Positions 10,193-61,941 of a DNA stretch of 64,000 nt are shown one piece after another. A program made the position numbers and the translations under genes. The stretch comes from Reyranella massiliensis 521 (GTDB taxonomy: Bacteria; Pseudomonadota; Alphaproteobacteria; Reyranellales; Reyranellaceae). The stretch lies in assembly GCF_000312425.1 (NCBI RefSeq), contig NZ_HE997181.1, positions 1,331,486-1,395,485 on the forward strand. Direction: 5' to 3'. A model generated the notes under the pieces. The model did not search any database, was not told the DNA's origin, and saw only the letters and a program-made list of their open reading frames with translations. The first letter of the stretch is position 1. Every line of letters starts with the position of its first letter.

Positions 10193-11413
10193 GTGAAGAC
10201 GAGTAGACGTGGTTTTGTAGGTGGTGCGTCCGCACTGGCGTTGTTCTCCGGCTCGACAGCCGCATTCGCCCAGAAGAAGTATTCCGATGGCGCGAGCGAT
10301 ACGGAAATCAAGATCGGCCACACCGGCCCCTATAGCGGCCCCGCATCATCCTATGGACAGATCGGCAAGACGCTCGAAGCCTATTGGAAGAGCGTGAACG
10401 ATGCAGGCGGCGTCAACGGCCGCAAGGTCAAGTTCCTGACGCTCGACGACGGCTACAATCCGGCGAAGATCGTGGAACTGACCCGCCAGCTCGTCGAGCA
10501 GGAAAAGGTGCTGTGCCTTTTCAATACGCTCGGCACGGCCAACAACACCGCCATCCACAAGTACATGAACCAGAAGAAGGTGCCGCAGCTCTATGTGGCG
10601 ACTGGCGCATCGAAGTGGGGCAAGCCCAAGGAATTCCCGTGGACGATGGGCTTCCAGCCCGACTACCACACCGAGGGCGTGATCTATGCCAAGCACATTC
10701 TGGCGAATGTGAAGGATGCGAAGATCGGCGTGCTGATGCAGAACGACGATTACGGCAAGGATTACTGGGACGGCTTCAAAGAAGGCCTGGGCAAGGATGC
10801 CAACAAGGTCGTGAAGCACGTGACCTTCGAAGTCACCGATCCCACGGTCGACAGCCAGATCATCCAGCTGAAGGACTCCGGCGCCAACGTCTTCTTCAAC
10901 ATCGCCACGCCCAAGGCGGCCGCGCAGGCGATCCGTAAGGCGGCCGATATCGGCTGGAAGCCGGTACAGTATCTCAACAACGTGTCGGCGTCGGTCGGCT
11001 CGGTGATGAAGCCCGCGGGCCTGGACAACAGCCAGGGCATCATCACGGCGCAGTATCTCAAGGACCCGACCGACAAGCAGTGGGAGAACACCGACGACTT
11101 CAAGGCCTGGATCGCCTGGATGGACAAGTGGATGCCGGGCTCCAACAAGGCCGACGCCAATCACGTGTTCGGCTTCGCGGTCGCCAGCCTGATGCACGAG
11201 ACTCTGAAGAAGTGCGGCAACGAGCTGACGCGCGAGAACGTCATGCGACAGGCGGCTAACTTCCAGAAGTACAAGCTGCCGCTGCTTCTGCCGGGCATCA
11301 CCATCAACACCAGCCCGACGGATTTCTATCCGATCCAGTCGGTGCAGCTTGCCCGCTTCAAGGGCGAAAGCTGGGATCTGTTCGGCGACATCATGTCGGC
11401 CGAAGGTTCCTGA
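10193..11413 (+). CDS. Leu/Ile/Val-type periplasmic substrate-binding protein, tandem paralogue 1
   Basis: A 406-residue periplasmic-binding protein of the branched-chain amino acid (type 1) fold. The N-terminus MKTSRRGFVGG carries a twin-arginine pair at 5-6, then a hydrophobic core and probable cleavage after AFA (residue 26). The mature protein starts with EIKIGHTGPYSGPASSYG, the ligand-cleft segment of the family, and contains GVNGRKVKFLTLDDGYNP and GVLMQNDDYGKDYWDG. The start is GTG, with GGGAGGG a few bases upstream. It lies downstream of livGFHM and is followed by two paralogues of the same length and a strong intrinsic terminator. The ligand cannot be deduced; related proteins bind amides, aromatic acids or amino acids. 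Confidence 0.93.
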   Translation: MKTSRRGFVGGASALALFSGSTAAFAQKKYSDGASDTEIKIGHTGPYSGPASSYGQIGKTLEAYWKSVNDAGGVNGRKVKFLTLDDGYNPAKIVELTRQLVEQEKVLCLFNTLGTANNTAIHKYMNQKKVPQLYVATGASKWGKPKEFPWTMGFQPDYHTEGVIYAKHILANVKDAKIGVLMQNDDYGKDYWDGFKEGLGKDANKVVKHVTFEVTDPTVDSQIIQLKDSGANVFFNIATPKAAAQAIRKAADIGWKPVQYLNNVSASVGSVMKPAGLDNSQGIITAQYLKDPTDKQWENTDDFKAWIAWMDKWMPGSNKADANHVFGFAVASLMHETLKKCGNELTRENVMRQAANFQKYKLPLLLPGITINTSPTDFYPIQSVQLARFKGESWDLFGDIMSAEGS

Positions 11414-11435
11414 GAGGCACAGAGACAAATGCCGG

Positions 11436-11467
11436 GAAGGCCGCCGAAAGGCGGCCTTCTCTTTTTT
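11436..11467 (+). terminator. Rho-independent terminator after binding protein 1
   Basis: A perfect 10-bp stem (11436-11445 with 11450-11459), a GAAA tetraloop and a following TCTTTTTT tract form a textbook intrinsic terminator 22 bases after the stop codon. Paralogue 2 therefore probably has its own promoter or relies on read-through. Confidence 0.9.
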
Positions 11468-11511
11468 GCCCCATTCGGCAGGCAAGCACGCGCCCGGTTT
11501 TTGTCGGGGGT

Positions 11512-12732
11512 ATGTGCATGCGTAGGCGTGGTTTCGTAGGCGGGGCATCCGCTGCGACGTTGCTTCTTGCTTCGGGGGCGGCCGGCCAGAAGAAATACGA
11601 CGACGGCGCCAGCGATACGGAAATCAAGATCGGCCATACCGGCCCGTACAGTGGGCCGGCTTCTTCCCTCGGTATCATCGGCAAGTGCATCGACGCCTAT
11701 TGGAAGAGCGTGAACGATACGGGCGGCATCAACGGTCGCAAGATCCGTTTCATGTCCCTCGACGACGGCTATTCGCCTGCCAAGACCGTGGAGCTCGTGC
11801 GCCGGCTCGTCGAACAGGAGAAGGTGTTCTGCCTGTTCGATACGCTCGGAACGCCCAGCAACACGGCGATCCACAAATATCTGAACCAGAAGAAGGTGCC
11901 GCAGCTTTACGTCGCCTCCGCGGCATCGAAGTGGGGCAAGCCCAAGGAATACCCTTGGACGATGGGCTTTCAGCCCGACTACCACACCGAAGGGGCGATC
12001 TATGCGCGCCACATCCTGGCCAATGTCGTGGACCCGCGCATTGCCGTCCTGATGCAAAACGACGACTACGGCAAAGACTACTGGGAGGGCTTCAAGAAGG
12101 GCCTCGGTGCCGATGCCGCCCGCAGGGTCGTGAAGCACGTGACCTACGAGGTTGCCGATCCCACGGTCGACAGCCAGATGATCCAGCTCGCGGCTTCCGG
12201 CGCCAACGTCTTCTTCAACGTCACGACACCCAAGGCGGCCGCGCAGGCGATTCGCAAGGCGGCGGATCTCGGCTGGAAGCCCGTTCACTACCTCAACATC
12301 GTCTCGGCGTCGGTGGGAACCGTGATGAAGCCTGCCGGGCTGGAGAACGGGCAGGGCACCATTACCGCACAGTATCTCAAGGACCCGACCGATCCGCAGT
12401 GGGACGACGATCCCGAGATGACGGCATGGCGGGCCTGGATGAGCAGGTGGATGCCGGGCGCCGTTCAGGCCGACGCCAACTACGTCTTTGCCTATGCGGT
12501 CACCTCGCTGATGCACGAGACGCTGAAGAAGTGCGGCGACGACCTCACGCGCGCGAATCTGATGCGCCAGGCCGCCAGTCATCAGAAACTGCGTGTGCCG
12601 CTGCTGCTGCCGGGCATCACCGTCAACACCGGCCCTGCGGATTTCTACCCCGTCCAGTCCATGCGGCTCGCCCGCTTCAAGGGCGCGAGCTGGGATCTAT
12701 TCGGCGACGTGCTGCACGCCGAGAGTGCCTGA
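11512..12732 (+). CDS. Leu/Ile/Val-type periplasmic substrate-binding protein, tandem paralogue 2
   Basis: A 406-residue paralogue of the genes on either side, with the same landmarks: EIKIGHTGPYSGPASSLG, NQKKVPQLYVASAASKWGKP, MQNDDYGKDYWEG, LLLPGITVNTGPADFYPVQ. The N-terminus MCMRRRGFVGG has a triple-Arg Tat-like motif followed by a short hydrophobic stretch. The ATG at 11512 aligns exactly with the paralogues' starts; the in-frame ATG at 11518 has better spacing from the upstream GGGGG and is an alternative. Substitutions relative to paralogue 1 (IIGKCID for QIGKTLE, LEDP-type differences in the C-terminal lobe) suggest a different ligand preference. It is bounded by terminator-like hairpins on both sides. 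Confidence 0.92.
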   Translation: MCMRRRGFVGGASAATLLLASGAAGQKKYDDGASDTEIKIGHTGPYSGPASSLGIIGKCIDAYWKSVNDTGGINGRKIRFMSLDDGYSPAKTVELVRRLVEQEKVFCLFDTLGTPSNTAIHKYLNQKKVPQLYVASAASKWGKPKEYPWTMGFQPDYHTEGAIYARHILANVVDPRIAVLMQNDDYGKDYWEGFKKGLGADAARRVVKHVTYEVADPTVDSQMIQLAASGANVFFNVTTPKAAAQAIRKAADLGWKPVHYLNIVSASVGTVMKPAGLENGQGTITAQYLKDPTDPQWDDDPEMTAWRAWMSRWMPGAVQADANYVFAYAVTSLMHETLKKCGDDLTRANLMRQAASHQKLRVPLLLPGITVNTGPADFYPVQSMRLARFKGASWDLFGDVLHAESA

Positions 12733-12753
12733 ACGCAGATGTCGGAGTGAGCA

Positions 12754-12781
12754 AGGGCCGTCGATATCCAGCGACGGCCTT
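12754..12781 (+). terminator. Probable terminator after binding protein 2
   Basis: GGCCGTCG (12756-12763) pairs with CGACGGCC (12772-12779), extended by a G-T and an A-T pair, around an 8-base loop. A T/C-rich tract (TTCTCCCTTCTT) follows. It sits 22 bases after the stop codon, like the terminator after paralogue 1. Confidence 0.7.
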
Positions 12782-12923
12782 CTCCCTTCTTGTGCGCTGC
12801 ACCATCCAAATGGTCTCAACAGCTCGCGCGTTTTTCGCTTTCCAAGCCTCAAATTTCGCGCAACCCTGTTCTGCATAAAACACAAATCGGGGAGTTGAAG
12901 CGCGTCAAACCAAGGAGGCAACG

Positions 12924-14144
12924 TTGAAGACCAGCAGGCGTACTTTCCTGAGCGGCGTATCGACCGCCGCTGTCTTGTCCGCGTCAGGCGTAGCGTTTGC
13001 CCAGAAGAAGTACGACGAGGGAGCGACCGACAAAGAGATCAGGATCGGTCACACCAACCCCTATAGCGGGCCGGCCTCGGCGTATGGCGTGATCGGCAAG
13101 ACGATCGAAGCTTATTGGAAGAGCGTGAACGAGGCGGGCGGCATCAATGGCCGCATGGTCAGGTTCCTCACCCGCGACGACGGCTACAATCCTTCCAAGA
13201 CCGTCGAGATGATCCGCGAACTGGTCGAGCAGGAGAAGGTGCTCTGCACTTTCAACACGCTCGGTACGCCGACCAATACGGCGATCCACAAGTACATGAA
13301 CCAGAAGAAGGTGCCGCAGCTCTTCGTCGCCACCGGCGCGTCGAAGTGGGGCAAGCCGAAGGAGTTTCCGTGGACGATGGGCTTCCAGCCCGATTACCAC
13401 ACCGAAGGCGTGATCTATGCCAAGCACATTCTGGCGAATGTGAAGGATCCGAAGATCGGCGTGCTGATGCAGAACGACGACTACGGCAAGGACTACTGGG
13501 AAGGCTTCAAGGAAGGCCTGGGCAAGGACGCCAACAGGGTGTCCAAGCATGTCACCTATGAGGTGACGGACCCGACAGTCGACAGCCAGGTGATTCAGCT
13601 GAAGGACTCCGGCGCCAACGTCTTCTTCAACATCTCGACGCCGAAGTTTGCCGCCCAGGCGATCCGCAAGGCCGCCGATATCGGTTGGAAGCCGGCGCAG
13701 TACCTCAACAACGTGTCAGCCTCGGTCGCTTCGACCATGAAGCCGGCAGGTTTCGAGAACAGCCAGGGCATCATCACCGCGGCCTATCTGATGGATCCCA
13801 CGGACAAGCAGTGGGACGACAACGCCGACATGAAGGCGTGGCGGGCCTGGATGGCCAAGTCCAACCCACAGGGCAACGTGACCGACGCGTCGAACGTGTT
13901 CGCCTATGCCGTCTCCTTCCTGATGCACGAGACGCTGAAGAAGTGCGGTGACAACCTGACGCGCGCGAACGTCATGCGTCAGGCAGCCAATCACCAGAAG
14001 CTCAAGGTGCCGCTGCTGCTGCCAGGAATCACCGTCAGTACCAGCCCGACGGATTTCTATCCGATCCAGGCCGTCCAGCTTCAGCGCTTCCAGGGGGAGA
14101 CCTGGCACCTGTTCGGCGATGTCATGCACGCCGAAAGCAGCTGA
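12924..14144 (+). CDS. Leu/Ile/Val-type periplasmic substrate-binding protein, tandem paralogue 3
   Basis: A 406-residue third copy of the binding-protein array. MKTSRRTFLSG matches the Tat consensus S-R-R-x-F-L best of the three, with cleavage likely after AFA (residue 26). The mature part shares EIRIGHTNPYSGPASAYG and the NQKKVPQLFVATGASKWGKP stretch with paralogue 1, and the long block around TMGFQPDYHTEGVIYAKHIL is identical to paralogue 1, so 1 and 3 look closer to each other than to 2. In the cleft region HTNPYSG replaces HTGPYSG. The start is TTG, supported by AAGGAGG at 12912-12918. A structured region follows before the converging EF-hand gene. Confidence 0.92.
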   Translation: MKTSRRTFLSGVSTAAVLSASGVAFAQKKYDEGATDKEIRIGHTNPYSGPASAYGVIGKTIEAYWKSVNEAGGINGRMVRFLTRDDGYNPSKTVEMIRELVEQEKVLCTFNTLGTPTNTAIHKYMNQKKVPQLFVATGASKWGKPKEFPWTMGFQPDYHTEGVIYAKHILANVKDPKIGVLMQNDDYGKDYWEGFKEGLGKDANRVSKHVTYEVTDPTVDSQVIQLKDSGANVFFNISTPKFAAQAIRKAADIGWKPAQYLNNVSASVASTMKPAGFENSQGIITAAYLMDPTDKQWDDNADMKAWRAWMAKSNPQGNVTDASNVFAYAVSFLMHETLKKCGDNLTRANVMRQAANHQKLKVPLLLPGITVSTSPTDFYPIQAVQLQRFQGETWHLFGDVMHAESS

Positions 14145-50787: not shown

Positions 50788-51195
50788 TTGCGGGGAGCGA
50801 TCATTCTCGGTACGGTGCTGCTGAGTGCATTCGGCAGTGCTTCCGCGCAAGATCAACGTCCGCCGCAACTTGCCAATCCGGCTTCGGTGCGATGCGTCGA
50901 GCAGGGCGGGGCGCTCGAGATCGAAAAGCGCCCCGATGGCGGTCAGTACGGTGTCTGCACCTTCGTCGACAACTATCAGTGTGAGGAATGGGCACTGTTC
51001 CGCGGCGAATGCCCAAAGGGAGGGTTGCGCGTGACGGGCTATGTAACGTCTGCCGGCCGGTTCTGCGCCATCACCGGCGGCCGCTATGCCGTGTCGTCGC
51101 CGCCGGCTGCCGCCGCAGAAAAGGGCGTGTGCTCGCTTCCCGGCGGCAAGACCTGCGACGCCGACGCCTACTATGCAGGGACGTGCTCACGATGA
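50788..51195 (+). CDS. DUF333 family exported protein
   Basis: A 135-residue Cys-rich exported protein. The signal peptide MRGAIILGTVLLSAFGSASA ends at about residue 20. The DUF333 signature is LANPASVRCVEQGGALEIEKRPDGGQYGVC, followed by NYQCEEWALFRGECPKGGLRVTGY. The C-terminal part repeats a Cys pattern (GRFCAITGG, GVCSLPGGKTCDADAYYAGTC), so disulfides are likely. The start is TTG with AGGAG about ten bases upstream. It is embedded between the sulfatase (10 bases upstream) and moxR (4-base overlap), so it is expected to be co-translated with both. Its role is unknown. Confidence 0.82.
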   Translation: MRGAIILGTVLLSAFGSASAQDQRPPQLANPASVRCVEQGGALEIEKRPDGGQYGVCTFVDNYQCEEWALFRGECPKGGLRVTGYVTSAGRFCAITGGRYAVSSPPAAAAEKGVCSLPGGKTCDADAYYAGTCSR

Positions 51196-52166
51196 GCGCG
51201 CGCGAGCAGATCGCCGAGATCCAGCGCCGGGTAAATGCGTCGGTCATCGGCCAGGAAAGGGTGGTCGAGCGGCTGGTGATCGCCCTGCTGGCCAACGGCA
51301 ACGTACTGATCGAAGGGCTGCCGGGGCTGGCCAAGACGCGCGCGATCAAGAGCCTGTCGAAGGCGCTGGAGTCAGAGTTCAGCCGCATCCAGTTCACGCC
51401 GGACCTCCTGCCATCCGACGTGACGGGGGGCGAGATCTATCTCAGCCAGGGCGCGGGGGCAGGCACCTTTCAGTTCCGTCAGGGACCCGTGTTCGGCAAT
51501 CTTGTGCTGGCGGACGAGATCAACCGTGCGCCGGCCAAGGTCCAGTCGGCATTGCTGGAAGCCATGGAGGAGCGTCAGGTCACGGTTTCGGGCAAGCGCT
51601 ACAAGCTGCCGGCTCTGTTCATGGTCCTGGCGACCCAGAACCCAATTGAACAGGAAGGCACCTATCCGCTGCCCGAGGCGCAGATGGATCGGTTCCTGAT
51701 GCATGTCCGAATCGACTATCCAAGCGATGCGAACGAAGTGAAGGTGCTGCAACTCGTGCGGGGGGAAGAAGCACAGGGCGTCGAGACGGCACCTCTGCCG
51801 CCGGTGGAGCAGCGGGCCATCTTTGCTGCGCGCGGAGAAATCGATCACGTGAAGAGCGTTGCCGCCGTCGAAACCTATATTGTCGCGCTGATCGCCGCGA
51901 CCCGTCGACCATCGGAATATGGCGACCAGCTCAAGGACTGGCTCTCGATCGGCGCCAGCCCGCGTGGCTCGCTGGCGCTGGACCGCTGTTCGCGAGCCCA
52001 TGCCTGGCTGCAGGGACGTGATCATGTCCTGCCGGAAGACGTGCGGGCGGTGTCACACGATTGCCTGCGCCATCGCCTGACGCTTTCCTACGAGGCCACC
52101 GCCGCGGGCGTCGGCAAGGATGACGTCATCGACGAAATTCTGAAGCAGGTGGCCGTCGCGGCGTGA
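51192..52166 (+). CDS. MoxR family AAA+ ATPase
   Basis: A 324-residue AAA+ ATPase of the MoxR class. Walker A is GLPGLAKT (residues 42-49), the pre-sensor segment is FTPDLLPSDVTGGEIY, Walker B is LVLADEINRAPAK (D108, E109), sensor 1 is VLATQNPIEQEGTYPLPEAQMDRF, and an Arg-rich sensor 2 is in ASPRGSLALDR. Members act as chaperones that insert metals or remodel von Willebrand-domain partners. It overlaps the upstream DUF333 gene (ATGA) and is followed by DUF58, DUF4381, VWA, VWA, TPR and BatD-like genes, its usual partners. The ATG at 51192 is chosen because the conserved sequence begins there. Confidence 0.95.
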   Translation: MSAREQIAEIQRRVNASVIGQERVVERLVIALLANGNVLIEGLPGLAKTRAIKSLSKALESEFSRIQFTPDLLPSDVTGGEIYLSQGAGAGTFQFRQGPVFGNLVLADEINRAPAKVQSALLEAMEERQVTVSGKRYKLPALFMVLATQNPIEQEGTYPLPEAQMDRFLMHVRIDYPSDANEVKVLQLVRGEEAQGVETAPLPPVEQRAIFAARGEIDHVKSVAAVETYIVALIAATRRPSEYGDQLKDWLSIGASPRGSLALDRCSRAHAWLQGRDHVLPEDVRAVSHDCLRHRLTLSYEATAAGVGKDDVIDEILKQVAVAA

Positions 52167-52182
52167 CGCAGAAGGAGGGCGG

Positions 52183-53121
52183 ATGACTGAGGCACGCGCC
52201 TATGTGACCCTCGACGAGCTGCTGCATCTGCGCCATCGCGCCAAGGGCTTCAGCTTTCTGCCCCGCCAGCCGGTGCATAGCCTTTTGACCGGCCGACATG
52301 CCTCGCGGCTGCGCGGCCGCGGTCTCGATTTCGAGGAACTGCGCCACTATGCCGAAGGCGACGACACTCGAGCTATGGACTGGGCTGCGACCGCGCGGCT
52401 CGGGACGCCGCATGTCCGTGTCTATGGCGAGGAACGCGATCGCAACGTCCTGCTGCTGGTCGATCAGCGGCAATCCATGTTCTTCGGCAGCCAGCTTGCC
52501 ATGAAGTCTGTCGTCGCCGCCGAAGCGGCAGCCCTCTCGGCCTTCCGCGTCGCGTCGTTGGGCGACAGGGTCGGCGCCATTGTCTTCTCGGAGGCGGGCG
52601 GCGTGGTCGAAATCAAGCCGGAGGCGCGCGACGCCGGTGTCCGGCGCATCCTGGGCGAGATCGTGCGTCACAACCGCTTGCTGTCGGCGACGGCTGGTGA
52701 GTCCGATCCGGCGCTGCTCAACGAAGCGCTGCGCCGCGCCGTCCGCCTCGCTCATCACGATTGGCTGATCGTGCTGATCTCCGACATCGCGGGGGCCGAC
52801 GCCGAGAGCGTCAAGCACGTGACGCGCCTCACTGGCCACAACGACGCGCTTTCCGTATTCATTTCAGACCCCCTGGAAGCCGAATTGCCGGACATTGGAA
52901 ACGCCGTTCTGACCGATGGCAGCCGCCAGATCGAAGCGGACCTCTCCGCAGGTGTTCTGCGTCGGCAATTCTCGGCAGGCTTTGCCGAACGGCGGGCCAG
53001 CGCGGCCCGTTTCTCGTTGCAGCGAGCCATTCCCGTGTTGCCGTTGGTCACGGGCCGCGACGTGTCCGACCAGTTCCGCGAACAGCTCGGCCGACGCCTT
53101 TCCCGGCGCCGCGCGGCCTGA
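52183..53121 (+). CDS. DUF58 domain protein (VWA-like)
   Basis: A 312-residue cytoplasmic DUF58 protein. The family signature is GRGLDFEELRHYAEGDDTRAMDW (about residues 46-68). It is followed by a VWA-like fold whose metal site, normally D-x-S-x-S, reads DQRQSMFFGS here, an S-to-R change at position 3. DDWLIVLISDIAGAD-like and HDALSVFISDP segments complete the fold. DUF58 proteins form the second component of MoxR systems. It is spaced 16 bases from moxR and eight from DUF4381. Confidence 0.9.
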   Translation: MTEARAYVTLDELLHLRHRAKGFSFLPRQPVHSLLTGRHASRLRGRGLDFEELRHYAEGDDTRAMDWAATARLGTPHVRVYGEERDRNVLLLVDQRQSMFFGSQLAMKSVVAAEAAALSAFRVASLGDRVGAIVFSEAGGVVEIKPEARDAGVRRILGEIVRHNRLLSATAGESDPALLNEALRRAVRLAHHDWLIVLISDIAGADAESVKHVTRLTGHNDALSVFISDPLEAELPDIGNAVLTDGSRQIEADLSAGVLRRQFSAGFAERRASAARFSLQRAIPVLPLVTGRDVSDQFREQLGRRLSRRRAA

Positions 53122-53129
53122 GCGCGGGG

Positions 53130-53564
53130 ATGAGCGATCCCGCCGATCTTTCCAACCTGCGCGACATCGTCGTCCCACCTGAGGTCGCCCTGTGGCCACC
53201 AGCGCCGGGCTGGTGGATACTCCTGGCGGGCGGCATTGCCATGGCGGCGATCTTCGCCGGCATGATCGTCGCTCGATACAGGCGCAATGCCTATCGACGG
53301 GCCGCCCTCGTTGCTCTCGACACGGCCGACGCTGGCGACATCTCCAGCATCTTGAAACGCGTGGCGCTGGCGGCGTGGCCGCGGGCCGAAGTGGCGTCGC
53401 TGACGGGCGCCGAGTGGCTTGCCTTTCTGGACCGCACCGCCCGCAGCAATGTGTTCACCCAGGGAGCCGGGCGCGATTTGGAAGGCTTGGCCTTTGGCGG
53501 CGCCGGCGACGAGCAGGCCGTCCGGGCGGCGGCCCGCAACTGGATTCGGCGGCATCGATGCTGA
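53130..53564 (+). CDS. DUF4381 family membrane protein
   Basis: A 144-residue protein. A short periplasmic N-terminus (LSNLRDIVVPPEVALWPPAPGWW) is followed by one span, ILLAGGIAMAAIFAGMIVARY, and a cytoplasmic part that ends in the family pattern SLTGAEWLAFLDRTARSNVFTQGAGRDLEGLAF. DUF4381 genes are almost always inside MoxR/VWA clusters. Start at the ATG 53130-53132. It overlaps the next VWA gene by seven bases. Confidence 0.88.
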   Translation: MSDPADLSNLRDIVVPPEVALWPPAPGWWILLAGGIAMAAIFAGMIVARYRRNAYRRAALVALDTADAGDISSILKRVALAAWPRAEVASLTGAEWLAFLDRTARSNVFTQGAGRDLEGLAFGGAGDEQAVRAAARNWIRRHRC

Positions 53565-54556
53565 CGTTTGCCCAACCATGGTTCGCTCTTCTCCTGCCTC
53601 TGCCGGCACTGATCTGGTGGCTCATGCCGGCATATGCAGAGAGCCGGCGCGGCGTGCGTGTCCCGTTCTTCACGCTGCTCGTTTCTGCAACCGGCTTGCA
53701 GCCGCACGAAGGTGTCGTGACCCGGCAGCGTGGTTTCTGGCGGACGGCAAGCCTGGTGCTGTGCTGGCTGCTGTCGTTGCTGGCCCTGATGCGGCCGCAA
53801 TGGCTCGAGCCGCCGATCCATCGGGAAAGGCCGGCGCGGGATCTCCTGCTGCTGGTCGACCTCTCGGGCTCGATGGATACCAGGGACTTCACCGATCCAT
53901 CGGGCGCCAAGGTCGATCGCCTGACGGCCGCGAAGCAGGTGCTCGACGAGTTTCTCGCGAAGCGGCAAGGGGATCGCGTCGGTGTCGTGGTCTTCGGTAA
54001 CGCGGCCTTCACGCTGGTACCCTTCACGACTGACCTGAAGCTGGCGCGCGCGCTGCTGCAGGAGATGCAGGTCGGCATGGCCGGGCCGCGTACCGTGCTG
54101 GGCGACGCGATCGGGCTCGGCATCAACCTGTTCGCCCGCTCGACGGCGCCGGCCAAGACCATGATTGCCTTGACCGACGGTAACGACACGGCGAGCAGCG
54201 TGCCGCCGGCCGAAGCGGCGCGCATTGCTCACGATAAGGGGATCGTGATCCATACCGTGGCGATCGGCGATCCCGCAGCGGCCGGCGAGGAGAAGCTCGA
54301 CGAAGCGGCGTTGAAGGACGTGGCCACGGTGACCGGCGGCGGCTTCTACCGCGCGCTCGACCGCGCCGAACTGGCCGGCATCTATACGAAGCTCGACCAA
54401 ATCGAAGCACGCAAGGTCGATACGGTGAGCTACCAGCCGCGTACCGATCTCTATTGGGTTCCGCTGCTTGCGATGATCACGGTGGCGCTGTTGGCGCAGG
54501 CCCTGATGGTCGTGCGGCGGCCACGGTTGAGCCGCCTCCTGAAGGTGGCGTCATGA
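53558..54556 (+). CDS. von Willebrand factor A membrane protein (BatA-like)
   Basis: A 332-residue protein with an N-terminal pair of spans (LTFAQPWFALLLPLPALIWWL and LVLCWLLSLLALM), an extracytoplasmic VWA domain and a C-terminal span (WVPLLAMITVALLAQALMVV). The MIDAS is intact: DLSGS (D101, S103, S105), a Thr in the DLKLARAL region, and ALTDGND. This is the metal-competent VWA of the pair. It overlaps DUF4381 by seven bases and the second VWA-like gene by four. The start at 53558 gives the common MLTFAQPWF N-terminus. Confidence 0.93.
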   Translation: MLTFAQPWFALLLPLPALIWWLMPAYAESRRGVRVPFFTLLVSATGLQPHEGVVTRQRGFWRTASLVLCWLLSLLALMRPQWLEPPIHRERPARDLLLLVDLSGSMDTRDFTDPSGAKVDRLTAAKQVLDEFLAKRQGDRVGVVVFGNAAFTLVPFTTDLKLARALLQEMQVGMAGPRTVLGDAIGLGINLFARSTAPAKTMIALTDGNDTASSVPPAEAARIAHDKGIVIHTVAIGDPAAAGEEKLDEAALKDVATVTGGGFYRALDRAELAGIYTKLDQIEARKVDTVSYQPRTDLYWVPLLAMITVALLAQALMVVRRPRLSRLLKVAS

Positions 54557-55482
54557 CCGCTTTCCTCGAGAACTTTCATCTGTTGCGCCCTTGGGTGTTG
54601 CTGCTGCTCTTACCCGCACTGGCCCTGTGGTGGGCGAGCCATCGGGCCAGCGACACGATGCGCCGGTGGCGGCAGGTGATCGATCCGGCGCTGCTGAAGC
54701 ATCTCGTCGTTGGCGACACGGCCCGCCGTGCCTTGCGCCCGCATCATCTGCTGCTGGCTGGTATTGCCGTGGTGACCTTGGCGGCGGCAGGGCCGACGTG
54801 GCATCGCGAACCGTCGCCTTTTGCCGAACAGGCGGCACCGGCGATGATCGTGCTCAAGGTGACGCCCTCAATGACGACACCCGATCTGGCGCCGACGCGC
54901 CTCGACCGGGCACGACAGAAGATCGGCGATCTGCTCAAGCTCCGGGACGGCATGCCGGCAGGGCTCATCGCCTATAGTGGCTCCGCCCACCTCGTCCTGC
55001 CGCCGACACCCGATCGCGACGTGGTGATTGGTATGGCGGGGGCGCTGTCGCCGGCGATCATGCCGCGCGAAGGCGACCAGCTGGCCGATGCGGTGAAGCT
55101 CGCTGCGCAGGTGCTGCGGGATGGCGGACAGGGCGGCTCGATCCTGGTCGTGGCCGACAATGCGGCGCGCGGTCAGGCCGCGGCGCTGAAATCGCTCGCC
55201 GTCGGGGCGCCGGTGATCCTGTTCGCCGTGGCTCCGCCGCAGTTCGTGGCGGCCGATGCGGGCCTTGCGGCGGCAGTGTCGGCACTCGATGCCCGTGAGG
55301 TCGTCGCGACGGTGGACAATCAGGATGTGCAGGCGATTGCACGCCGGCTGGTGGATGCACCCGGTGCGCCAGTGGCTGCCGGTGAGACGGTGCATTGGCA
55401 GGAAGCAGGCTGGTGGCTGACGCCAGCCGTTTCTCTGATGGTGCTGCTGTGGTTTCGCCGCGGTTGGGTCATCGCGTCATGA
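54553..55482 (+). CDS. VWA-like membrane protein with degenerate MIDAS (BatB-like)
   Basis: A 309-residue paralogue of the upstream VWA protein with the same layout: N-terminal spans (RPWVLLLLLPALALWWA and HLLLAGIAVVTLAAAG), a VWA fold, and a C-terminal span (LTPAVSLMVLLWF). The metal site, expected as D-x-S-x-S after the first strand, reads LKVTPSMTTPD, so Asp is replaced by Lys102 and the first Ser by Thr104; only Ser106 remains. It is probably a metal-free partner of the BatA-like protein. It starts inside the upstream gene (ATGA overlap), and the TPR gene overlaps its end. Confidence 0.88.
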   Translation: MTAFLENFHLLRPWVLLLLLPALALWWASHRASDTMRRWRQVIDPALLKHLVVGDTARRALRPHHLLLAGIAVVTLAAAGPTWHREPSPFAEQAAPAMIVLKVTPSMTTPDLAPTRLDRARQKIGDLLKLRDGMPAGLIAYSGSAHLVLPPTPDRDVVIGMAGALSPAIMPREGDQLADAVKLAAQVLRDGGQGGSILVVADNAARGQAAALKSLAVGAPVILFAVAPPQFVAADAGLAAAVSALDAREVVATVDNQDVQAIARRLVDAPGAPVAAGETVHWQEAGWWLTPAVSLMVLLWFRRGWVIAS

Positions 55483-56099
55483 AGCGGCCGGGTACCTCGA
55501 TGGCTGTGGTGGCATCGCTGGTCGTCGCGGCTTTGGCGATCGGAGCTTGGCAGATCGGCTGGGCCGATCTTTGGATGACACCGGATCAGCGTGGTCGCCG
55601 GTGGATGGCGGAACAGAATTATCGCGAGGCCGCCAAGGCCTTCGCAGATCCGATGTGGGCTGGCGTTGCCCGCTTCCGCGCCGGTGAGTTCAAGGAGGCC
55701 GCGGAGACCTTTGGTGGCCTGGCGACCGCAGCGGCGGCTTACGATCAAGGCAATGCACTGGTGATGCTCGGTAAGTACGACGATGCCGTCGGCCGCTACG
55801 ATCGTGCCTTGGCCCTGCGGCCGGGCTGGGCCGATGCAGAGGCAAACCGGACGCTGGCAAGACTGCGGGCGGAAATGATGCGGCAGAAGGGTGCCGATGC
55901 CGGCGACCAGCGCGAGGGCGCCGACGAGATCGTCTACGACAAGGACAAGAAAAACCAGGAGGGGCAGAAGACCGAGGTTACCGGCGCCGTGATGACCGAC
56001 GAAGCCTCGCGCGCCGTGTGGCTGAAGCGTCTGCAGAGTCGCCCCGCCGACTTCCTTCGGGCGCGCTTCGTCAACCAGCTCGAGAGCAAGGCGCCATGA
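55479..56099 (+). CDS. TPR-repeat membrane protein (BatC-like)
   Basis: A 206-residue protein. One N-terminal span (MAVVASLVVAALAIGAWQI) is followed by TPR-like helical pairs (YREAAKAFADPMWAGVARFRAGEFKEAAETF, and AAYDQGNALVMLGKYDDAVGRYDRALALRPGWADAEANRTLARLRAE). The C-terminal half is a Lys/Glu/Asp-rich region. A short TPR protein after two VWA proteins is the typical BatC position. Overlaps of four bases on both sides (ATGA) indicate tight co-translation. Confidence 0.9.
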   Translation: MKRPGTSMAVVASLVVAALAIGAWQIGWADLWMTPDQRGRRWMAEQNYREAAKAFADPMWAGVARFRAGEFKEAAETFGGLATAAAAYDQGNALVMLGKYDDAVGRYDRALALRPGWADAEANRTLARLRAEMMRQKGADAGDQREGADEIVYDKDKKNQEGQKTEVTGAVMTDEASRAVWLKRLQSRPADFLRARFVNQLESKAP

Positions 56100-57313
56100 G
56101 AGTGGTGCTTTCGCTTCTGGTCCTGCTGCTGTCGGTGCCGGCGATGGCCCAGACCGAAGGCGTGGTCGTACGGACCACGGTGAAGCCGGAGCAGGGCGTC
56201 GTGCTGGGGCAGCATGTCCGCGTCTTGGTGGATGTCCTGTTTCCGGGCGAGATGCCTCGACCGCCGCGGGTTTCTCTCGCCGACATGTCGGGCGCGCAGA
56301 TCGTACGCTACGAAACGCAGGCCACGACAATGAGCGACACGATCGACGGCAAGACTTATGCCGGGCAGCGCTTCGAGTTCGCCCTTTATCCGCGTCGCGG
56401 CGGCCGGCTCACCATTCCGGCGCCGTCGGTGACCATATTGAACAGCTCCGGCGATATTGCGGGCCAGCTCCAGGGAAAGCCGCTCGAGTTGCAGATTGCC
56501 GTGCCGCCGGGTGTCGATCCGACGGCACCGGTGGTCGCCGCCGACTCGCTCACGCTTGAAGAACAATGGCAGCCGGTGCCGTCGAATGCCTTCAAGGCGG
56601 GCGACGCCATCGTCCGCACGATCACCCGCGTCGCCGCCGATGTGCCAGGCATGGCAATGCTCGACCTCGCCTTCACCGCGCCGCGAGGCGTACGTGTCTA
56701 TGTCGACCCGCCGCAAAGCACCGATCAGGTCAGTCGCGGCGCGCTAACAGGCCGGCGAACCGATCGCGTGACCTATGTGTTCGAGACTGGCGGTTCGTTC
56801 GTAATTCCCGAGGTCGCGCAGCCCTGGTGGGATCTTTCGGCGAACCGTCTCCGGCGCGCCGTGGGTGGAGGCGCCACGATCGCGGTGGCGAGCGCGCCGG
56901 TTGCTGCGGCGCCTGGCGACCCTGTCGAGCGCTGGGTATTCGCGGCCGCCACGGTACTGGGTCTCGTGTCCTTGGCGCTGTGGAGCTGGCTGCATGTACG
57001 CAGATGGCAGGCTGATCGTCGCGCCCGCTGGCTGGCTTCCGAATCAAAGGCCTTCGACGATCTCAAGGCTGCGTGTCGCAAAGACGGACCTGAGGCCGCC
57101 TATCGCACCTTTGCGGCGTGGCGGCAGCGCTTGCCAAGGCCGGAGGATGCCGCGCCACTTGCCGAGGAGATTGAAGCCGCATTGTTTGCCGGCGCGCCCT
57201 GGTCGCCCGATAGGGCCGATGCCTTCGCCAGGAAGGCCGAGGCGCTGCGCCATGCGACGGTACGGCGAGAGCGGGCGAGCATCTTGCCGCCGCTCAATCC
57301 CGCGGTGCCCTGA
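56096..57313 (+). CDS. BatD-like exported membrane protein
   Basis: A 405-residue protein. The signal peptide MRVVLSLLVLLLSVPAMA runs to residue 18. A beta-rich periplasmic part contains RTTVKPEQGVVLGQHVRVLVDVLFPGEMP and the typical FEFALYPRRGGRLTIPAPSVTI. A C-terminal span (WVFAAATVLGLVSLALWSWLH, about residue 285-305) is followed by a cytoplasmic helical tail (FDDLKAACRKDGPEAAYRTFAAWRQRL). Organisation matches BatD (oxygen-tolerance family). It is the last gene of the cluster; the next gene converges 22 bases beyond. Confidence 0.88.
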   Translation: MRVVLSLLVLLLSVPAMAQTEGVVVRTTVKPEQGVVLGQHVRVLVDVLFPGEMPRPPRVSLADMSGAQIVRYETQATTMSDTIDGKTYAGQRFEFALYPRRGGRLTIPAPSVTILNSSGDIAGQLQGKPLELQIAVPPGVDPTAPVVAADSLTLEEQWQPVPSNAFKAGDAIVRTITRVAADVPGMAMLDLAFTAPRGVRVYVDPPQSTDQVSRGALTGRRTDRVTYVFETGGSFVIPEVAQPWWDLSANRLRRAVGGGATIAVASAPVAAAPGDPVERWVFAAATVLGLVSLALWSWLHVRRWQADRRARWLASESKAFDDLKAACRKDGPEAAYRTFAAWRQRLPRPEDAAPLAEEIEAALFAGAPWSPDRADAFARKAEALRHATVRRERASILPPLNPAVP

Positions 57314-57335: not shown

Positions 57336-57884
57336 TCAGGTCTGTTCGGAAGGCGCCTGCCTGACAGTAGACCGCTTTCGACTGCTTGGTGCCGGCTTCA
57401 TCAATGACGCAGCCAGCCGCACCGATAGAACAAGAGCGCGGCCGACCAGCATGCCGGCGCAGCATGTCGCAATGAGCGCGGCGCCGAGCTGAAGGTTCTC
57501 GAGAGCCGGGGTGAAGATCGCGGCCACGATCTCGGTGGCGACCGCAACGGCAAGAATGATCGGCACCCAGAGCAGCGCCCGCTTGGCGGCGGACCGCTCC
57601 TGCAGCATCGACATGTAGAGATCGACGTGCAGCACGGTCGTGAAGCCGCGGAGCATGCCGATCGCCAAACCCGCGAGCACTGCCGCCTCGAAAACCCAGG
57701 GAGGCCGATGGGCGATGACCTGCAGCAGGAACATGCCGATGGCGACGACCGTCGCCAGCGTTGCAGGCACGAACAGACGCCAGATCGACACGTAACGGCG
57801 TCGGATCTCGCGCAATGCGAAGTACACACAGCCGCTCGCCCCCAAAGCCAGCAGCAGGTGGACCAAAGTTAAATTGTAGACCAT
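57336..57884 (-). CDS. Four- or five-span membrane protein of unknown function
   Basis: A 182-residue hydrophobic protein I do not recognise. Spans are visible at about residues 5-23 (LTLVHLLLALGASGCVYFA), 37-57 (LFVPATLATVVAIGMFLLQVI), 66-84 (FEAAVLAGLAIGMLRGFTT), 103-121 (ALLWVPIILAVAVATEIVA) and 131-152 (LGAALIATCCAGMLVGRALVLS). The C-terminus is Arg/Lys-rich. The spans with few charged residues fit an integral inner-membrane protein. It converges with the BatD-like gene. Confidence 0.65.
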   Translation of the reverse strand: MVYNLTLVHLLLALGASGCVYFALREIRRRYVSIWRLFVPATLATVVAIGMFLLQVIAHRPPWVFEAAVLAGLAIGMLRGFTTVLHVDLYMSMLQERSAAKRALLWVPIILAVAVATEIVAAIFTPALENLQLGAALIATCCAGMLVGRALVLSVRLAASLMKPAPSSRKRSTVRQAPSEQT

Positions 57885-58000: not shown

Positions 58001-58327
58001 TTACGGATGCGGCCCCCAGGGTGCCGCATTCAGCAGCTTCACTTCCTGACTCATCACCAGCGGACGAAACTTGACGGCGAAGCCGTCCATGAAGGCGGGG
58101 TCGGAGAAGACAGCGGCCCAGTGGCTGCGTCGGTGAGCATCGTCGTTGAACTTCCAGAGATGAACGAGCTGATTGATGGTACCCGTGTCGCCCTGGAAAT
58201 AGCCGACGAGGTTTTTGGCATGGCCGCCCTTGTCGAGCGCGGGGAAGCCGAACTCCTGATAGAGCTTTACCGCCTCCGCCATCTTGCCGACGTAAAGCGT
58301 GTAGGTCCTGAGTTCGTAGAGCGCCAT
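58001..58327 (-). CDS. NIPSNAP family protein
   Basis: A 108-residue ferredoxin-like dimeric alpha/beta-barrel protein. MALYELRTYTLYVGKMAEAVKLYQEFGFP is the classic NIPSNAP opening (Y-E-[LM]-R-x-Y), with INQLVHLWKFNDDAHRRSHW later. The function of bacterial members is unclear. It lies between a membrane-protein gene on the same strand and the divergent FAD monooxygenase, whose start is 70 bases away. Such proteins often sit beside oxidative catabolic genes. Confidence 0.88.
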   Translation of the reverse strand: MALYELRTYTLYVGKMAEAVKLYQEFGFPALDKGGHAKNLVGYFQGDTGTINQLVHLWKFNDDAHRRSHWAAVFSDPAFMDGFAVKFRPLVMSQEVKLLNAAPWGPHP

Positions 58328-58396
58328 TTCGATCTCCCGCCGTGATGCTGGACCTCAGGATGACAAGGACGCGCGTTACGCTCTAGGCTCGATTCC

Positions 58397-60175
58397 ATGG
58401 ATGTCGAACTCAGCCGTGATGCGAAACAAGTTGTCGGCGATTGGCTGACAGGCCTGAATGCCGCTCTCGAGGCAAAGGACGCTGCCGCTGTCGGCGCCCT
58501 GTTCCGCAGCGATTGCGATTGGCGCGATATCGTGGCGCTCACCTGGACCATCGAGACGGTGAGTGATCGCGAGCCCGTCGCGCGGCGCCTCGTGGAAGCT
58601 GCCACAGCCACCGGGGCGTGCGACTTTGCCATAGATCCCGAACGCCATCCGCCGCGCGACGTCGAGCGCGCCGGCGAGACTTGCGTCGAGGCGATCCTGA
58701 CTTTCGCGACGAAGGTGGGCAGGGGAGCCGGCATCGTTCGCTTGAAGCGCAGCGACTGCCGCGCTGGCTCGACGGTGGCCTGGACCTTGATGACCGCCCT
58801 CGACGAACTCACCGGCTACGAAGAAGAAGTGATCCTCGAAGCCTCGGAAGAACCCGCCTTCGAGCGCGATTTCCACGGCCCCAACTGGCTCGACCGCCGG
58901 GAGCAGTCGTCGCGTTACGAGGATCGCGAGCCGGTGGTGCTGATCGTGGGCGGCGGCCATGCCGGCGTGACGGCGGCGGCGCGCTTCAAGGCCCTGGGCA
59001 TCGATGCGCTGGTCGTCGACCGCATGGCACGCATCGGCGACAACTGGCGCAAGCGCTATCATGGGCTGAAGCTGCACAATCAGAAGCACAGCAATCACTT
59101 CCCGTATCTGCCGTTTCCCAAGACCTGGCCGAAGTACATTCCCAAGGACAAGATCGCCAACTGGATCGAGTCCTACGTCGAGACCATGGAGATCGACTTC
59201 TGGACGCGCACGACCTTCCAGGGAGCCACCTGGGACGCGTCGAAGAAGCGCTGGACGGCGCAGCTTGCCCTCGACGTCGCCGACGGTGTGGGGCGCACGC
59301 TCCATCCACGCCATATCGTGATGGCGACCAGCGTCAGCGGTACGCCGAACCTGCCCGACATCCCGACCCTCGACCGCTTTACGGGGCCGGTTGTCCATTC
59401 CAGCAAATTCACCGACGGCGCCGCGTGGCGCGGCAAGAACGTCTACGTGTTCGGCACGGGGACCAGCGCGCACGACATTGCGCAGGACCTGCACGGCAAT
59501 GGCGCCCACACGACCGTCGTGCAGCGCAGCCCGACCCTCATCACCAACGTCGAGCCCAGTGCGCAGCTCTACGACGGCGTCTATTACGGCAAGGGGCCGG
59601 CCTATGAAGACCGCGACCTGATCAACGTCTCGGTGCCGCTGCGCGTGATGAAGGTGGCGCACAAGATCCTGACCGACGAATCGCGCCGGCACGATGCCGC
59701 GCTTCTCGAAGGGCTGGAGAAGGTCGGTTTCCGGCTCGAATTCGGCGAAGGCGGCACCGGCTGGCCGCTGAAGTACCGCTCCCGAGGCGGCGGTTACTAT
59801 TTCAATGTCGGCGCCTCCGATCTGGTCGCGCGCGGCGAGATCGGCCTCATCCAATATGCCGACATCGCCGAGTTCACGGCGACCGGCCTGAAGATGAAGG
59901 ACGGCGGCGAACGTCCTGCCGATCTGATCGTGCTGGCTACCGGCTACAAGGGGCAGGACCACCTGGTCGGCCAGCTTTTCGGCCCGGAGGTCGCCAAGAA
60001 GGTCGGTGCGGTCTGGGGCTTCGATCCGGTCACTCAGGAGCTGAACAATATGTGGGTGCCGACCGCGCAACCCGGCCTCTGGTTCACCGGCGGCTCCTTC
60101 GCGCAGTGCCGCATGTACTCCAAGTACCTCGCCCTGCAGATCAAGGCGCAGGAAGAGGGGCTGGCACCTCGATAG
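58397..60175 (+). CDS. NTF2-like domain fused to FAD-dependent (FMO/Baeyer-Villiger-type) monooxygenase
   Basis: A 592-residue fusion. Residues ~1-145 are a SnoaL/NTF2-like cone (WLTGLNAALEAKDAAAVGALFRSDCDWRD), then a class B flavoprotein monooxygenase follows. The first Rossmann motif is VGGGHAG (about 184-190, FAD), the family fingerprint is FTGPVVHSSKF (F328, G330, H334, F338), and the second Rossmann motif is FGTGTSAHD (about 352-360, NADPH). ATGYKGQD is near the C-terminus. The fingerprint is FMO/BVMO-like, but the usual final Trp of BVMOs is Phe here. It is predicted to oxygenate a ketone, amine or other soft substrate. An SMP-30-type lactonase follows after 11 bases. Confidence 0.88.
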   Translation: MDVELSRDAKQVVGDWLTGLNAALEAKDAAAVGALFRSDCDWRDIVALTWTIETVSDREPVARRLVEAATATGACDFAIDPERHPPRDVERAGETCVEAILTFATKVGRGAGIVRLKRSDCRAGSTVAWTLMTALDELTGYEEEVILEASEEPAFERDFHGPNWLDRREQSSRYEDREPVVLIVGGGHAGVTAAARFKALGIDALVVDRMARIGDNWRKRYHGLKLHNQKHSNHFPYLPFPKTWPKYIPKDKIANWIESYVETMEIDFWTRTTFQGATWDASKKRWTAQLALDVADGVGRTLHPRHIVMATSVSGTPNLPDIPTLDRFTGPVVHSSKFTDGAAWRGKNVYVFGTGTSAHDIAQDLHGNGAHTTVVQRSPTLITNVEPSAQLYDGVYYGKGPAYEDRDLINVSVPLRVMKVAHKILTDESRRHDAALLEGLEKVGFRLEFGEGGTGWPLKYRSRGGGYYFNVGASDLVARGEIGLIQYADIAEFTATGLKMKDGGERPADLIVLATGYKGQDHLVGQLFGPEVAKKVGAVWGFDPVTQELNNMWVPTAQPGLWFTGGSFAQCRMYSKYLALQIKAQEEGLAPR

Positions 60176-60186
60176 GGGGACAATCG

Positions 60187-61041
60187 ATGCAACAGGTCGC
60201 GACAGGCTACGGGCTCGTCGAAGGCCCAGTCTGGGATTCGGCCCATGGTCTCTATTTCAGCGACGTCATCAATGGCGGGGTCTACCTGCTGGATCGCGCC
60301 GGTGCAGTTTCCCTGGCCGTGCCGAAGCGGCGGGGCATCGGCGGCATGGCGCTTCACGATAGCGGCGGTCTGATCGTGGGCGGGCGCGACATTGCCCATG
60401 TCTCGTTGGCCGACGGGGGCACGAAGACGCTGCTGCCGCTCGATGCCATCCCCGGCGCCACCGGCTTCAACGATCTCACGACCGACAGCGTCGGGCGCAT
60501 CTACGTAGGGTCGCTGGCCTTCAAGGTATTCGGCGGCGAACCGCCGAAGCCCGGGCACCTGCATGTCATCGACGTGGACGGCTCGATGCGCACCGTGTCC
60601 GACGGCATACTCCTGACCAACGGATTGGGCTTTTCGCCCGACGGGAAGCGTCTCTATCACAGCGACGCGCGCGCCGGGATCGTCCGTGTCTACGATGTGG
60701 CGGCGGATGGCGGCGTCGGCCCGTGGGGGCAGTTCGCCTCGATGGGCGACGGCGGCGTTCCCGACGGATTGAAGGTGGCGAGCGACGGTTCGGTCTGGGT
60801 TGCCGACGCCCATGGCGGCCGCGTCGCGGTCTTCGGTGCAGACGGTGCGCACCGCCGCGATCTCGAAGTGCCTCTGCCGATGGTCACCAGTGTCTGCTTC
60901 GGCGGCGACGACCTGCGTGATCTCTACGTCGTCACGGGCTCACGTGGCGGCCCGAGCGAGAATTGCGGCAGCATTTTCAAGACGAGGGTCGACGCTGCAG
61001 GCTTGGCACTGCCGCCAGCCAGGACTAGGCTGACGCCCTAA
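60187..61041 (+). CDS. SMP-30/gluconolactonase family protein
   Basis: A 284-residue six-bladed beta-propeller. The opening GLVEGPVWDSAHGLYFSDVINGGVYLLD carries the metal-binding Glu of EGP[VI]W and the substrate loop. GFNDLTTDSVGRIYVGS provides the Asn metal ligand, TNGLGFSPDGKRLYHSDA the second Asn and the Asp, and GVPDGLKVASDGSVWVADAHGGRV the closing blade. Members hydrolyse lactones with a bound divalent metal. The start is the ATG at 60187 with GGGGGACAATCG before it. The tight link to the monooxygenase suggests lactone hydrolysis after oxygenation. Confidence 0.9.
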   Translation: MQQVATGYGLVEGPVWDSAHGLYFSDVINGGVYLLDRAGAVSLAVPKRRGIGGMALHDSGGLIVGGRDIAHVSLADGGTKTLLPLDAIPGATGFNDLTTDSVGRIYVGSLAFKVFGGEPPKPGHLHVIDVDGSMRTVSDGILLTNGLGFSPDGKRLYHSDARAGIVRVYDVAADGGVGPWGQFASMGDGGVPDGLKVASDGSVWVADAHGGRVAVFGADGAHRRDLEVPLPMVTSVCFGGDDLRDLYVVTGSRGGPSENCGSIFKTRVDAAGLALPPARTRLTP

Positions 61042-61134
61042 CGGAAAATTCATCGACTGCGTGCGTGCCGCGTTCTGGCTTTCTGCGGGGGCGCGGTGCC
61101 TCAATGACATCGGTTCGGATCGGGAGGGCGACCC

Positions 61135-61941
61135 ATGGTTGAAGCCTCGCGTCACGATGCATGGCAGGCGGGCGAAAGCTACGATGCCTATATGGGCAGG
61201 TGGAGCCGCAAGGTCGCACCTCGCTTCCTCGACTGGCTAGCTGCGCCGGAGGACCGCAACTGGCTCGATATTGGCTGCGGTACCGGGGCGCTCACGGCCG
61301 CCATTCTCGCGCAGTGCAAGCCAACGAGCTTGCTGGCCATCGACCCTTCCGACGGCTTCGTCGCAAAGGTGCGAGCAGGCATTCCCGACAAGCGCGCCGA
61401 GTTCCGGGTCGGCGATGCCCAGGCGGTCGAGGTGGAAACGGACAGCCGCGACGTCGTGGTATCGGCCCTGGTGCTGAACTTCGTTCCCGACCGGCGCAAG
61501 GCGCTCGCGGAGATGAAGCGCATCGTCCGGCCGGGTGGAACGATCGGCTTCTATGTCTGGGACTATCCCGGCGGCGGCATTGAGTTCGTGCGTGCCTTCT
61601 GGCGCGCGGCGGTGTCACTCGACCCTGCGGCGCAGGACCTTACCGAGGACAGACGCTTTCCTTTCTGCACGCCGAAGGGCCTGGCCGAGTTGGCAGCCGA
61701 TGCCGGTCTCGGGCTAGTGAGCTGCGCGCCGATCGAAGTGCCGACGGTCTTCAGCGACTTCGACGACTACTGGCGGCCCTTCACCTTGGGGGCGGGGCCG
61801 GCGCCGGGCTACTGCGCGAAGCTGGCGCCGGACGCTCGGGAGAAGTTGAGGCAGAAACTGCAGGACAGCGTCCCGTTGCGGGCCGACGGCGCAATCCCAT
61901 TCAAGGCGAGAGCCTGGGCGGTTCGCGCGGCCTTCGACTGA
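61135..61941 (+). CDS. Class I SAM-dependent methyltransferase
   Basis: A 268-residue Rossmann-fold methyltransferase. ESYDAYMGRWSRKVAPRFLDWL precedes motif I, WLDIGCGTGALTAAIL (about residues 42-57). The acidic motif II is LAIDPSDGFVAK, motif post-II is FRVGDAQAVEVE, and the final motif is MKRIVRPGGTIGFYVWDYPGG. It resembles UbiE/Methyltransf_11-type enzymes of unspecified substrate. It is 93 bases after the lactonase-like gene, with its own GGGAGG ribosome site, and could be co-transcribed. Confidence 0.9.
   Translation: MVEASRHDAWQAGESYDAYMGRWSRKVAPRFLDWLAAPEDRNWLDIGCGTGALTAAILAQCKPTSLLAIDPSDGFVAKVRAGIPDKRAEFRVGDAQAVEVETDSRDVVVSALVLNFVPDRRKALAEMKRIVRPGGTIGFYVWDYPGGGIEFVRAFWRAAVSLDPAAQDLTEDRRFPFCTPKGLAELAADAGLGLVSCAPIEVPTVFSDFDDYWRPFTLGAGPAPGYCAKLAPDAREKLRQKLQDSVPLRADGAIPFKARAWAVRAAFD

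Follow-up and report, generated by a model that had tools for sequence, protein, structure and literature searches.

Type II flavin-containing monooxygenases (FMOs) with an N-terminal extension are known as ketone-active enzymes: FMO-E, -F and -G, PsFMO A, B and C, and JsFMO are listed as such in the excerpts of PMC10028610 that are used throughout this work, and PsFMO C clusters there apart from the other extended enzymes. JsFMO, a type II FMO of Janthinobacterium svalbardensis with the solved structure 8acs, gives lactones with cyclobutanone derivatives or norcamphor as substrate and acetates with linear ketones, takes NADPH as well as NADH and is poor in sulfoxidation (PMC10028610). The order ketone, lactone, hydroxy acid is followed in the monoterpene ketone route of Rhodococcus erythropolis DCL14, which employs a Baeyer-Villiger monooxygenase (BVMO) and the lactone hydrolase MlhB (excerpts of PMC7794910). 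The subject of the present analysis is a pair of genes that may follow the same order, located in a 64,000-nt stretch (hereafter the window) of the single-contig, 5.8-Mb genome of Reyranella massiliensis 521: a gene for an NTF2-bearing FMO and, immediately downstream on the same strand, a gene for an SMP-30/gluconolactonase/LRE-like hydrolase (SGL). The enzymes of the DCL14 route are, as we take it, a type I BVMO and an alpha/beta hydrolase, that is, members of families other than those encoded in the window.

The best single reading of the locus, to be held tentatively and with somewhat less than even confidence, is that FMO and SGL are co-transcribed and catalyze successive steps that lead from a ketone to a hydroxy acid by way of a lactone or ester. 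FMO would consume NAD(P)H and O2 in a Baeyer-Villiger oxidation that places oxygen beside the ketone carbonyl, and the predicted metal-dependent SGL propeller would open the resulting lactone or ester to give the hydroxy acid. Family membership of both proteins, the SGL fold as predicted, the conserved residues and the distance between the genes are direct results. It is from knowledge of the two protein families and from the gene spacing that we infer co-transcription, the type of reaction, its substrate and the action of SGL on the FMO product. The elements concerned are as follows.

58397-60175, plus strand: class B flavoprotein monooxygenase of 592 aa with an NTF2/SnoaL N-terminus (type IIb FMO), assigned from the 8acs alignment, the Pfam matches Pyr_redox_3 and FMO-like, and the invariant H227, Y467 and R572
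58397-58830, plus strand: NTF2/SnoaL-like N-terminal domain, residues ~1-145 with an estimated border, assigned from the 8acs alignment and the excerpts of PMC10028610
60176-60186, plus strand: FMO-SGL spacer of 11 nt with GGGGGA at its start, a possible ribosome-binding site by eye
60187-61041, plus strand: SGL, a six-bladed beta-propeller hydrolase of 284 aa, assigned from PF08450, an AlphaFold2 model and PDB fold matches

The two proteins and their junction

The FMO reading frame runs from the ATG at 58397 to the TAG at 60175. The first-pass annotation of this DNA had credited the protein with two Rossmann motifs, the FMO fingerprint and an NTF2-like N-terminus, all of which were borne out. 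The FAD motif is G185-x-G187-x-x-G190, the NAD(P) motif G353-x-G355-x-x-A358 and the fingerprint F328-x-G330-xxx-H334-xxx-F338. Among solved structures JsFMO (8acs) was by far the best match (392 bits, E 3.5e-116, residues 15-589, the next match reaching only 58 bits), and a match of near full length is no chance similarity. Both Pyr_redox_3 and FMO-like exceeded their Pfam cut-offs and the N-terminal domain was left unmatched in the same scan; its NTF2/SnoaL assignment is based on the 8acs alignment together with the domain description in PMC10028610. D44 of FMO aligns with Asp43 of JsFMO, a residue likened to the catalytic Asp38 of ketosteroid isomerase (PMC10028610). Neither FMO nor SGL reached the cut-off of any NCBIfam model.

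FMO shares with the type IIb family, as represented in the excerpts of PMC7570161 by Rhodococcus FMO-E, -F and -G, an FMO core preceded by an extension of ~160 residues (FMO-E and FMO-G were compared by description only). It departs from the type IIb consensus in having F338-T339 instead of (H/y/f)P; T339 agrees neither with K/R, found at this place in other FMOs, nor with the proline of type IIb, and the Trp that ends the type I BVMO fingerprint (FxGxxxHxxxW) is also absent, F338 standing in its place (PMC7570161). Column 339 was variable over a set of 166 FMO loci (duplicates included, as in all counts from this set). The proline after the fingerprint is taken here as frequent in type IIb enzymes, not as defining them, and FMO is without it.

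The window's FMO resembles JsFMO in length, in the SnoaL/NTF2-like N-terminal domain, in the two Rossmann motifs and in the equivalents of His216, Tyr458, Arg571 and Arg363, which are H227, Y467, R572 and R377 in the 8acs alignment. It differs in the NAD(P) motif (GxGxxA versus GxNxxA in JsFMO) and in Asn228, which replaces Asp217, the only one of the tested residues to have changed. H227, Y467 and R572 were present in 166/166 FMO loci and R377 in 160/166, while position 228 held Asn in 151 loci and Asp in the other 15. In JsFMO, Arg363 contacts the 2'-phosphate and Arg571 is structural, and none of His216, Asp217 and Tyr458 is essential (PMC10028610). The R377 position is Asn in the remaining 6 of the 166 loci, L056 among them, and these are perhaps NADH-preferring type IIb FMOs. 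The D228-type FMOs form a separate branch of the tree that includes the second NTF2-FMO of the window's genome (in L057). This second gene (G000:C1:481440-483131, L002) encodes the JsFMO-like D228, N355 and H338, so that two subtypes occur in this one genome.

Another kind of oxidation, either N-/S-oxygenation or a YUCCA-like oxidative decarboxylation of an alpha-keto acid, with SGL acting elsewhere, is unlikely to be the main function of FMO. The segment around H227 is presumably YUCCA-like, and Asn228 in place of Asp217 also fits this alternative. In the excerpts of PMC10682829 heteroatom oxygenation is named as the predominant FMO reaction and NTF2-bearing FMO-F is placed with a YUCCA in clade III; JsFMO itself sulfoxidises, though poorly (PMC10028610). 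The YUCCA is, however, credited with Baeyer-Villiger oxidations too (PMC10682829), and the extended type II FMOs listed in PMC10028610 are ketone-active. Since the D217A variant of JsFMO keeps about half of its activity (PMC10028610), N228 is no strong argument against Baeyer-Villiger activity.

The SGL reading frame, from the ATG at 60187 to the stop at 61041, matched PF08450 at 167 bits (cut-off 26). The AlphaFold2 model had a mean pLDDT of 91.3, and its top PDB folds were mouse/human SMP30 (4gn7/3g4e) and the Caulobacter xylonolactonase (7plc/7plb); the matches to solved propellers are full or near full length, which excludes chance. SGL shares with SMP-30/regucalcin and the xylonolactonase (4gn7, 3g4e, 7plb) the propeller fold, at TM-scores of 0.84-0.87, and the metal ligands, although identity is only 24-30%. 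E12, N95, N145 and D193 align with E18, N103, N154 and D204 of regucalcin, which we take to be its metal ligands, and they are invariant across 24 aligned sequences, the window's included. The predicted fold and the ligands are those of a metal-dependent lactonase, as had been proposed on first reading. Regucalcin R101 and E121, in our assumption the substrate (sugar)-binding residues, are not kept and correspond to G93 and K113. A sugar lactone is therefore unlikely as the SGL substrate; the sequence suggests a non-sugar lactone, and a hydrophobic lactone or ester may be envisaged.

FMO ends at 60175 and SGL starts at 60187, which leaves the 11 nt between them that had been noted initially. 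No terminator-like site was found between the two genes. Scanning of 58200-61300 gave no promoter-like site and one terminator-like site, within the FMO gene; these results were no higher than in shuffled sequence.

Linkage of FMO and SGL in relatives

The proposal that the two genes form a ketone-to-hydroxy-acid pair also led to the question of whether they are paired elsewhere. The family survey comprised 75 genomes; a close FMO orthologue (73-100% identity) was found in 24/75 and an SGL homologue, at E <= 1e-45, in 52/75. The tight pair occurs in four of the 24 FMO genomes, with the 11-nt gap in the window, G034 and G022 and with a 4-nt ATGA overlap in G016. In five further genomes (G013, G012, G020, G062 and G069) FMO lies upstream of SGL on one strand and contig, 2.7-9.6 kb apart. 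Linkage within 10 kb, on one strand and with FMO upstream, was thus seen in 9 of the 10 testable genomes with FMO and a close SGL. The sole miss was G068, where SGL was not found in the 9.3 kb downstream of FMO.

SGL accompanies FMO in 13 of the 24 genomes. Outside the ten testable ones are G026, in which the genes are on separate contigs with FMO ~660 nt from a contig end, and G036 and G067, which have just a 64-65% identical SGL on other contigs. In G042 the contig ends 145 nt past FMO and there was no SGL match. Distances were taken from the position data of the FMO and SGL surveys, the gene caller having missed or merged SGL in G012, G024 and G035. By simple arithmetic, SGL would come to lie by chance on the FMO strand and no more than 10 kb downstream in fewer than 1 in 500 cases, given a genome of 5-6 Mb; the genomes compared do, however, share ancestry.

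Several findings besides Asn228 speak against a common pathway. At the threshold used SGL is missing from 11/24 FMO genomes, near-complete ones included, and it is present in 39/51 family genomes without a close FMO; within the family the two genes tend, if anything, to occur apart (odds ratio 0.36, p 0.06). The window junction unites two blocks that are found separately in relatives. The FMO of G016 (C287), 420 aa long and incomplete at a contig end, shares 92% identity with the window's, yet the adjoining SGL is just 79% identical, no closer than the SGLs of FMO-less genomes, so that the histories of the two genes disagree. In G069 a TAG interrupts the SGL gene, whereas the FMO frame is intact (an assembly error is possible). 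Moreover, in the survey of the class described below, the seven genomes outside the family that have both genes carry them on different contigs (six cases) or 583 kb apart (G269), and the fetched FMO flanks gave no SGL. The idea that SGL depends on FMO was ruled out by the 39/51 family genomes that carry SGL without a close FMO.

The alternative that the two genes are neighbours without a shared pathway has a probability close to that of the ketone-to-hydroxy-acid reading and is itself a doubtful but serious candidate. Here a rearrangement would have put an FMO-NIPSNAP block directly upstream of an SGL gene with an older role of its own, and joint transcription would be accidental. The family counts, in which the presence of FMO and that of SGL are independent of each other, agree with it, and so does the composition of the blocks. 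SGL adjoins a gene for a periplasmic binding protein (PF13458) and a gene for a 518-aa protein in eight FMO-less genomes (G057, G029, G024, G045, G043, G032, G014 and G056; the SGL gene of G024 was missed by the caller and its position comes from the SGL survey), and the same block follows SGL in G034, G022 and G016. The PF13458 assignment was made on the window's copy of the binding protein, and the 518-aa protein was taken by eye as a gamma-glutamyltransferase. Conversely, the FMO of the SGL-less G011, G010 and G064 has NIPSNAP on its upstream side, just as the window's FMO does, and a member of the family of the 182-aa protein nearby in the opposite orientation.

The trees point the same way, the linked FMOs being one clade (7 rows; G016 is not in the tree) and the SGLs of the linked genomes being spread over several SGL clades, among those of FMO-less genomes. 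Against unlinked neighbours stands the fact that in 9/10 testable genomes the two genes are no more than 10 kb apart on one strand in spite of differing flanks, which shared ancestry can explain in part, and that a short or overlapping junction is kept in four genomes. Either the linkage is old and was lost many times, or FMO joined SGL more than once.

The FMO tree had 128 rows and was built without fragments <480 aa (G016 among them), recognised duplicates, hand-chosen rows of L144-L183 and the near copies L119, L120, L132, L178 and L185-L188. The SGL tree covered 41 of the 52 genomes with SGL, and of the 39 genomes that have SGL and lack the close FMO, 24 had their SGL surroundings viewed.

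Beyond the family, 385 genomes of the class were surveyed at E <= 1e-80 for FMO and E <= 1e-55 for SGL, the counts being lower bounds (at most 3 or 6 candidates scored per genome). FMO was found in at least 40, SGL in at least 21 and both in at least nine, against an expectation of ~2 (Fisher p 7e-5; 6e-4 when the window's own family is excluded; neither value is corrected for phylogeny). Of 581 named loci the best 80 (FMO identity 49-96%) were inspected, and SGL was present within the available flanks of L112 alone, whose contig is as long as that of G034; the loci examined outside the genus contained no such pair. A widespread conserved FMO-SGL operon was ruled out on these grounds. The expected recurrence in unrelated genomes was not observed, the tight pair being confined to four genomes of one genus.

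The initial proposal is supported in part. Its chemistry is plausible, given the lactone-forming JsFMO as nearest structure and the predicted lactonase fold and ligands of SGL, and the evidence from co-occurrence is mixed. In view of the co-occurrence test, coupling of FMO and SGL would be a local Reyranella arrangement and not a general trait of the FMO family.

Six annotated plasmid loci with FMO homologues of 39-46% identity, hand-picked from 164 records, were inspected for comparison. SDR genes were near the FMO homologue in 6/6, a carboxylesterase, alpha/beta hydrolase or amidohydrolase gene in 4/6, an aldehyde dehydrogenase in 3/6 and an annotated SGL in 0/6. Judged from gene content, this looks like a catabolic neighbourhood whose hydrolases have other folds, as ketone breakdown would predict. 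Separately, the gene of a 50% identical NTF2-FMO paralogue in L241 (G065) is followed 2.4 kb further along its strand by an SGL-family gene (~11204-12157), which may be a further case of an FMO linked to a propeller.

Neighbouring genes

Two genes lie upstream of FMO on the other strand.

58001-58327, minus strand: NIPSNAP-family protein (PF07978), divergent from FMO and 69 nt apart, also adjoining FMO in several SGL-less relatives
57336-57884, minus strand: 182-aa protein with no Pfam match, whose family is also near FMO in SGL-less relatives in the opposite orientation (synteny cluster 2)

That the divergent NIPSNAP is the true partner of FMO, SGL being incidental, is highly improbable. It lies upstream and divergent, 52-836 nt from FMO, in many Reyranella relatives, with and without SGL, and in G048 (L056) a paralogous NTF2-FMO gene is followed after 17 nt by a 79% identical NIPSNAP gene. 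None is present beside other orthologues, however, e.g. in G066 and G017, and outside the genus just two NIPSNAP genes occurred in the loci, ~6 kb from FMO. No biochemical role of NIPSNAP is known to us, so this alternative offers no mechanism.

Elsewhere in the window, 10241-14144 encodes three tandem Peripla_BP_6 substrate-binding proteins, mutually 74-80% identical, after ATP-binding cassette (ABC) permease genes. A MoxR-type AAA ATPase, a VWA protein and a BatD-like protein are encoded at 51192-57313, probably a Bat-type operon.

A second propeller arrangement and significance of the pair

After removal of 13 recognised duplicates from the 166 FMO loci, an NHL beta-propeller gene followed FMO on the same strand in 29 of the remaining 153, in 27 of them as the very next gene. 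These loci are mostly from Bradyrhizobium, with FMOs 51-58% identical to the window's, and DUF2855 was upstream of FMO in 18 loci, mostly the NHL-bearing ones. The trio DUF2855 - NTF2-FMO - NHL (PAL-like) is represented by L144 (4778-8783) and, in similar form, by L147, L153, L162, L171 and L183, from Bradyrhizobium and near kin. DUF2855 was found in no paper of the literature searched, which leaves out most subscription journals.

The trio resembles the Reyranella pair in that a homologous FMO is followed by a beta-propeller gene on the same strand; it differs in that the propeller is of the NHL and not the SMP-30 type and that the FMOs form their own clade. NHL domains were the top sequence matches of the NHL protein, which also matched peptidyl-alpha-hydroxyglycine alpha-amidating lyase (PAL; E 1e-24). 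Its model (mean pLDDT 76) had PAL 3fvz as the best fold match. In Pfam it scored 74 bits with NHL and 33 bits with SGL. These scores, the NHL/PAL structure matches and the separate FMO clade rule out that the propeller gene of Bradyrhizobium is simply SGL, and the clade also indicates a separate origin of the FMO-NHL arrangement.

All propellers in the fetched flanks are downstream of FMO and all but one fragment are on the FMO strand; the profile was seeded with the window's SGL and the Bradyrhizobium NHL only, so that remoter propellers or missed genes would escape. As the rows are closely related, they represent two or three independent FMO-propeller events, not 40. On a broader view, which we consider rather improbable, NTF2-FMOs may more than once have recruited a dedicated downstream beta-propeller partner, SMP-30-type in Reyranella and PAL-like NHL in Bradyrhizobium, giving two unrecognised pathways from an FMO product to metal-dependent propellers. 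In the NHL case the propeller would perhaps act as a lyase on a hydroxylated carbon rather than open a lactone.

In the literature searched, most subscription journals lying outside it, nothing was found on a Baeyer-Villiger-active type II FMO together with a lactonase, or on a Baeyer-Villiger monooxygenase together with an SMP-30 lactonase. Papers on Baeyer-Villiger monooxygenases with lactone hydrolases, one of them on an engineered cascade, and on a valerolactone hydrolase with cyclopentanone did not bear on the pair, and the matches for gene clusters of Baeyer-Villiger enzymes with gluconolactonase and for NIPSNAP with flavin-containing monooxygenase were apparently unrelated.

Both proteins belong to known families, and the two-step pathway is plausible but mostly ordinary. 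We know of no natural substrates of type IIb FMOs. The FMO-NHL arrangement of Bradyrhizobium, which by far exceeds the Reyranella pair in the number of genomes, is the first place to look. If the ketone-to-hydroxy-acid reading is true, a physiological partner would be named for type IIb FMOs, enzymes studied as biocatalysts, and the pair would constitute a compact ketone-to-hydroxy-acid cassette in which an SMP-30-type hydrolase replaces the usual alpha/beta hydrolase.

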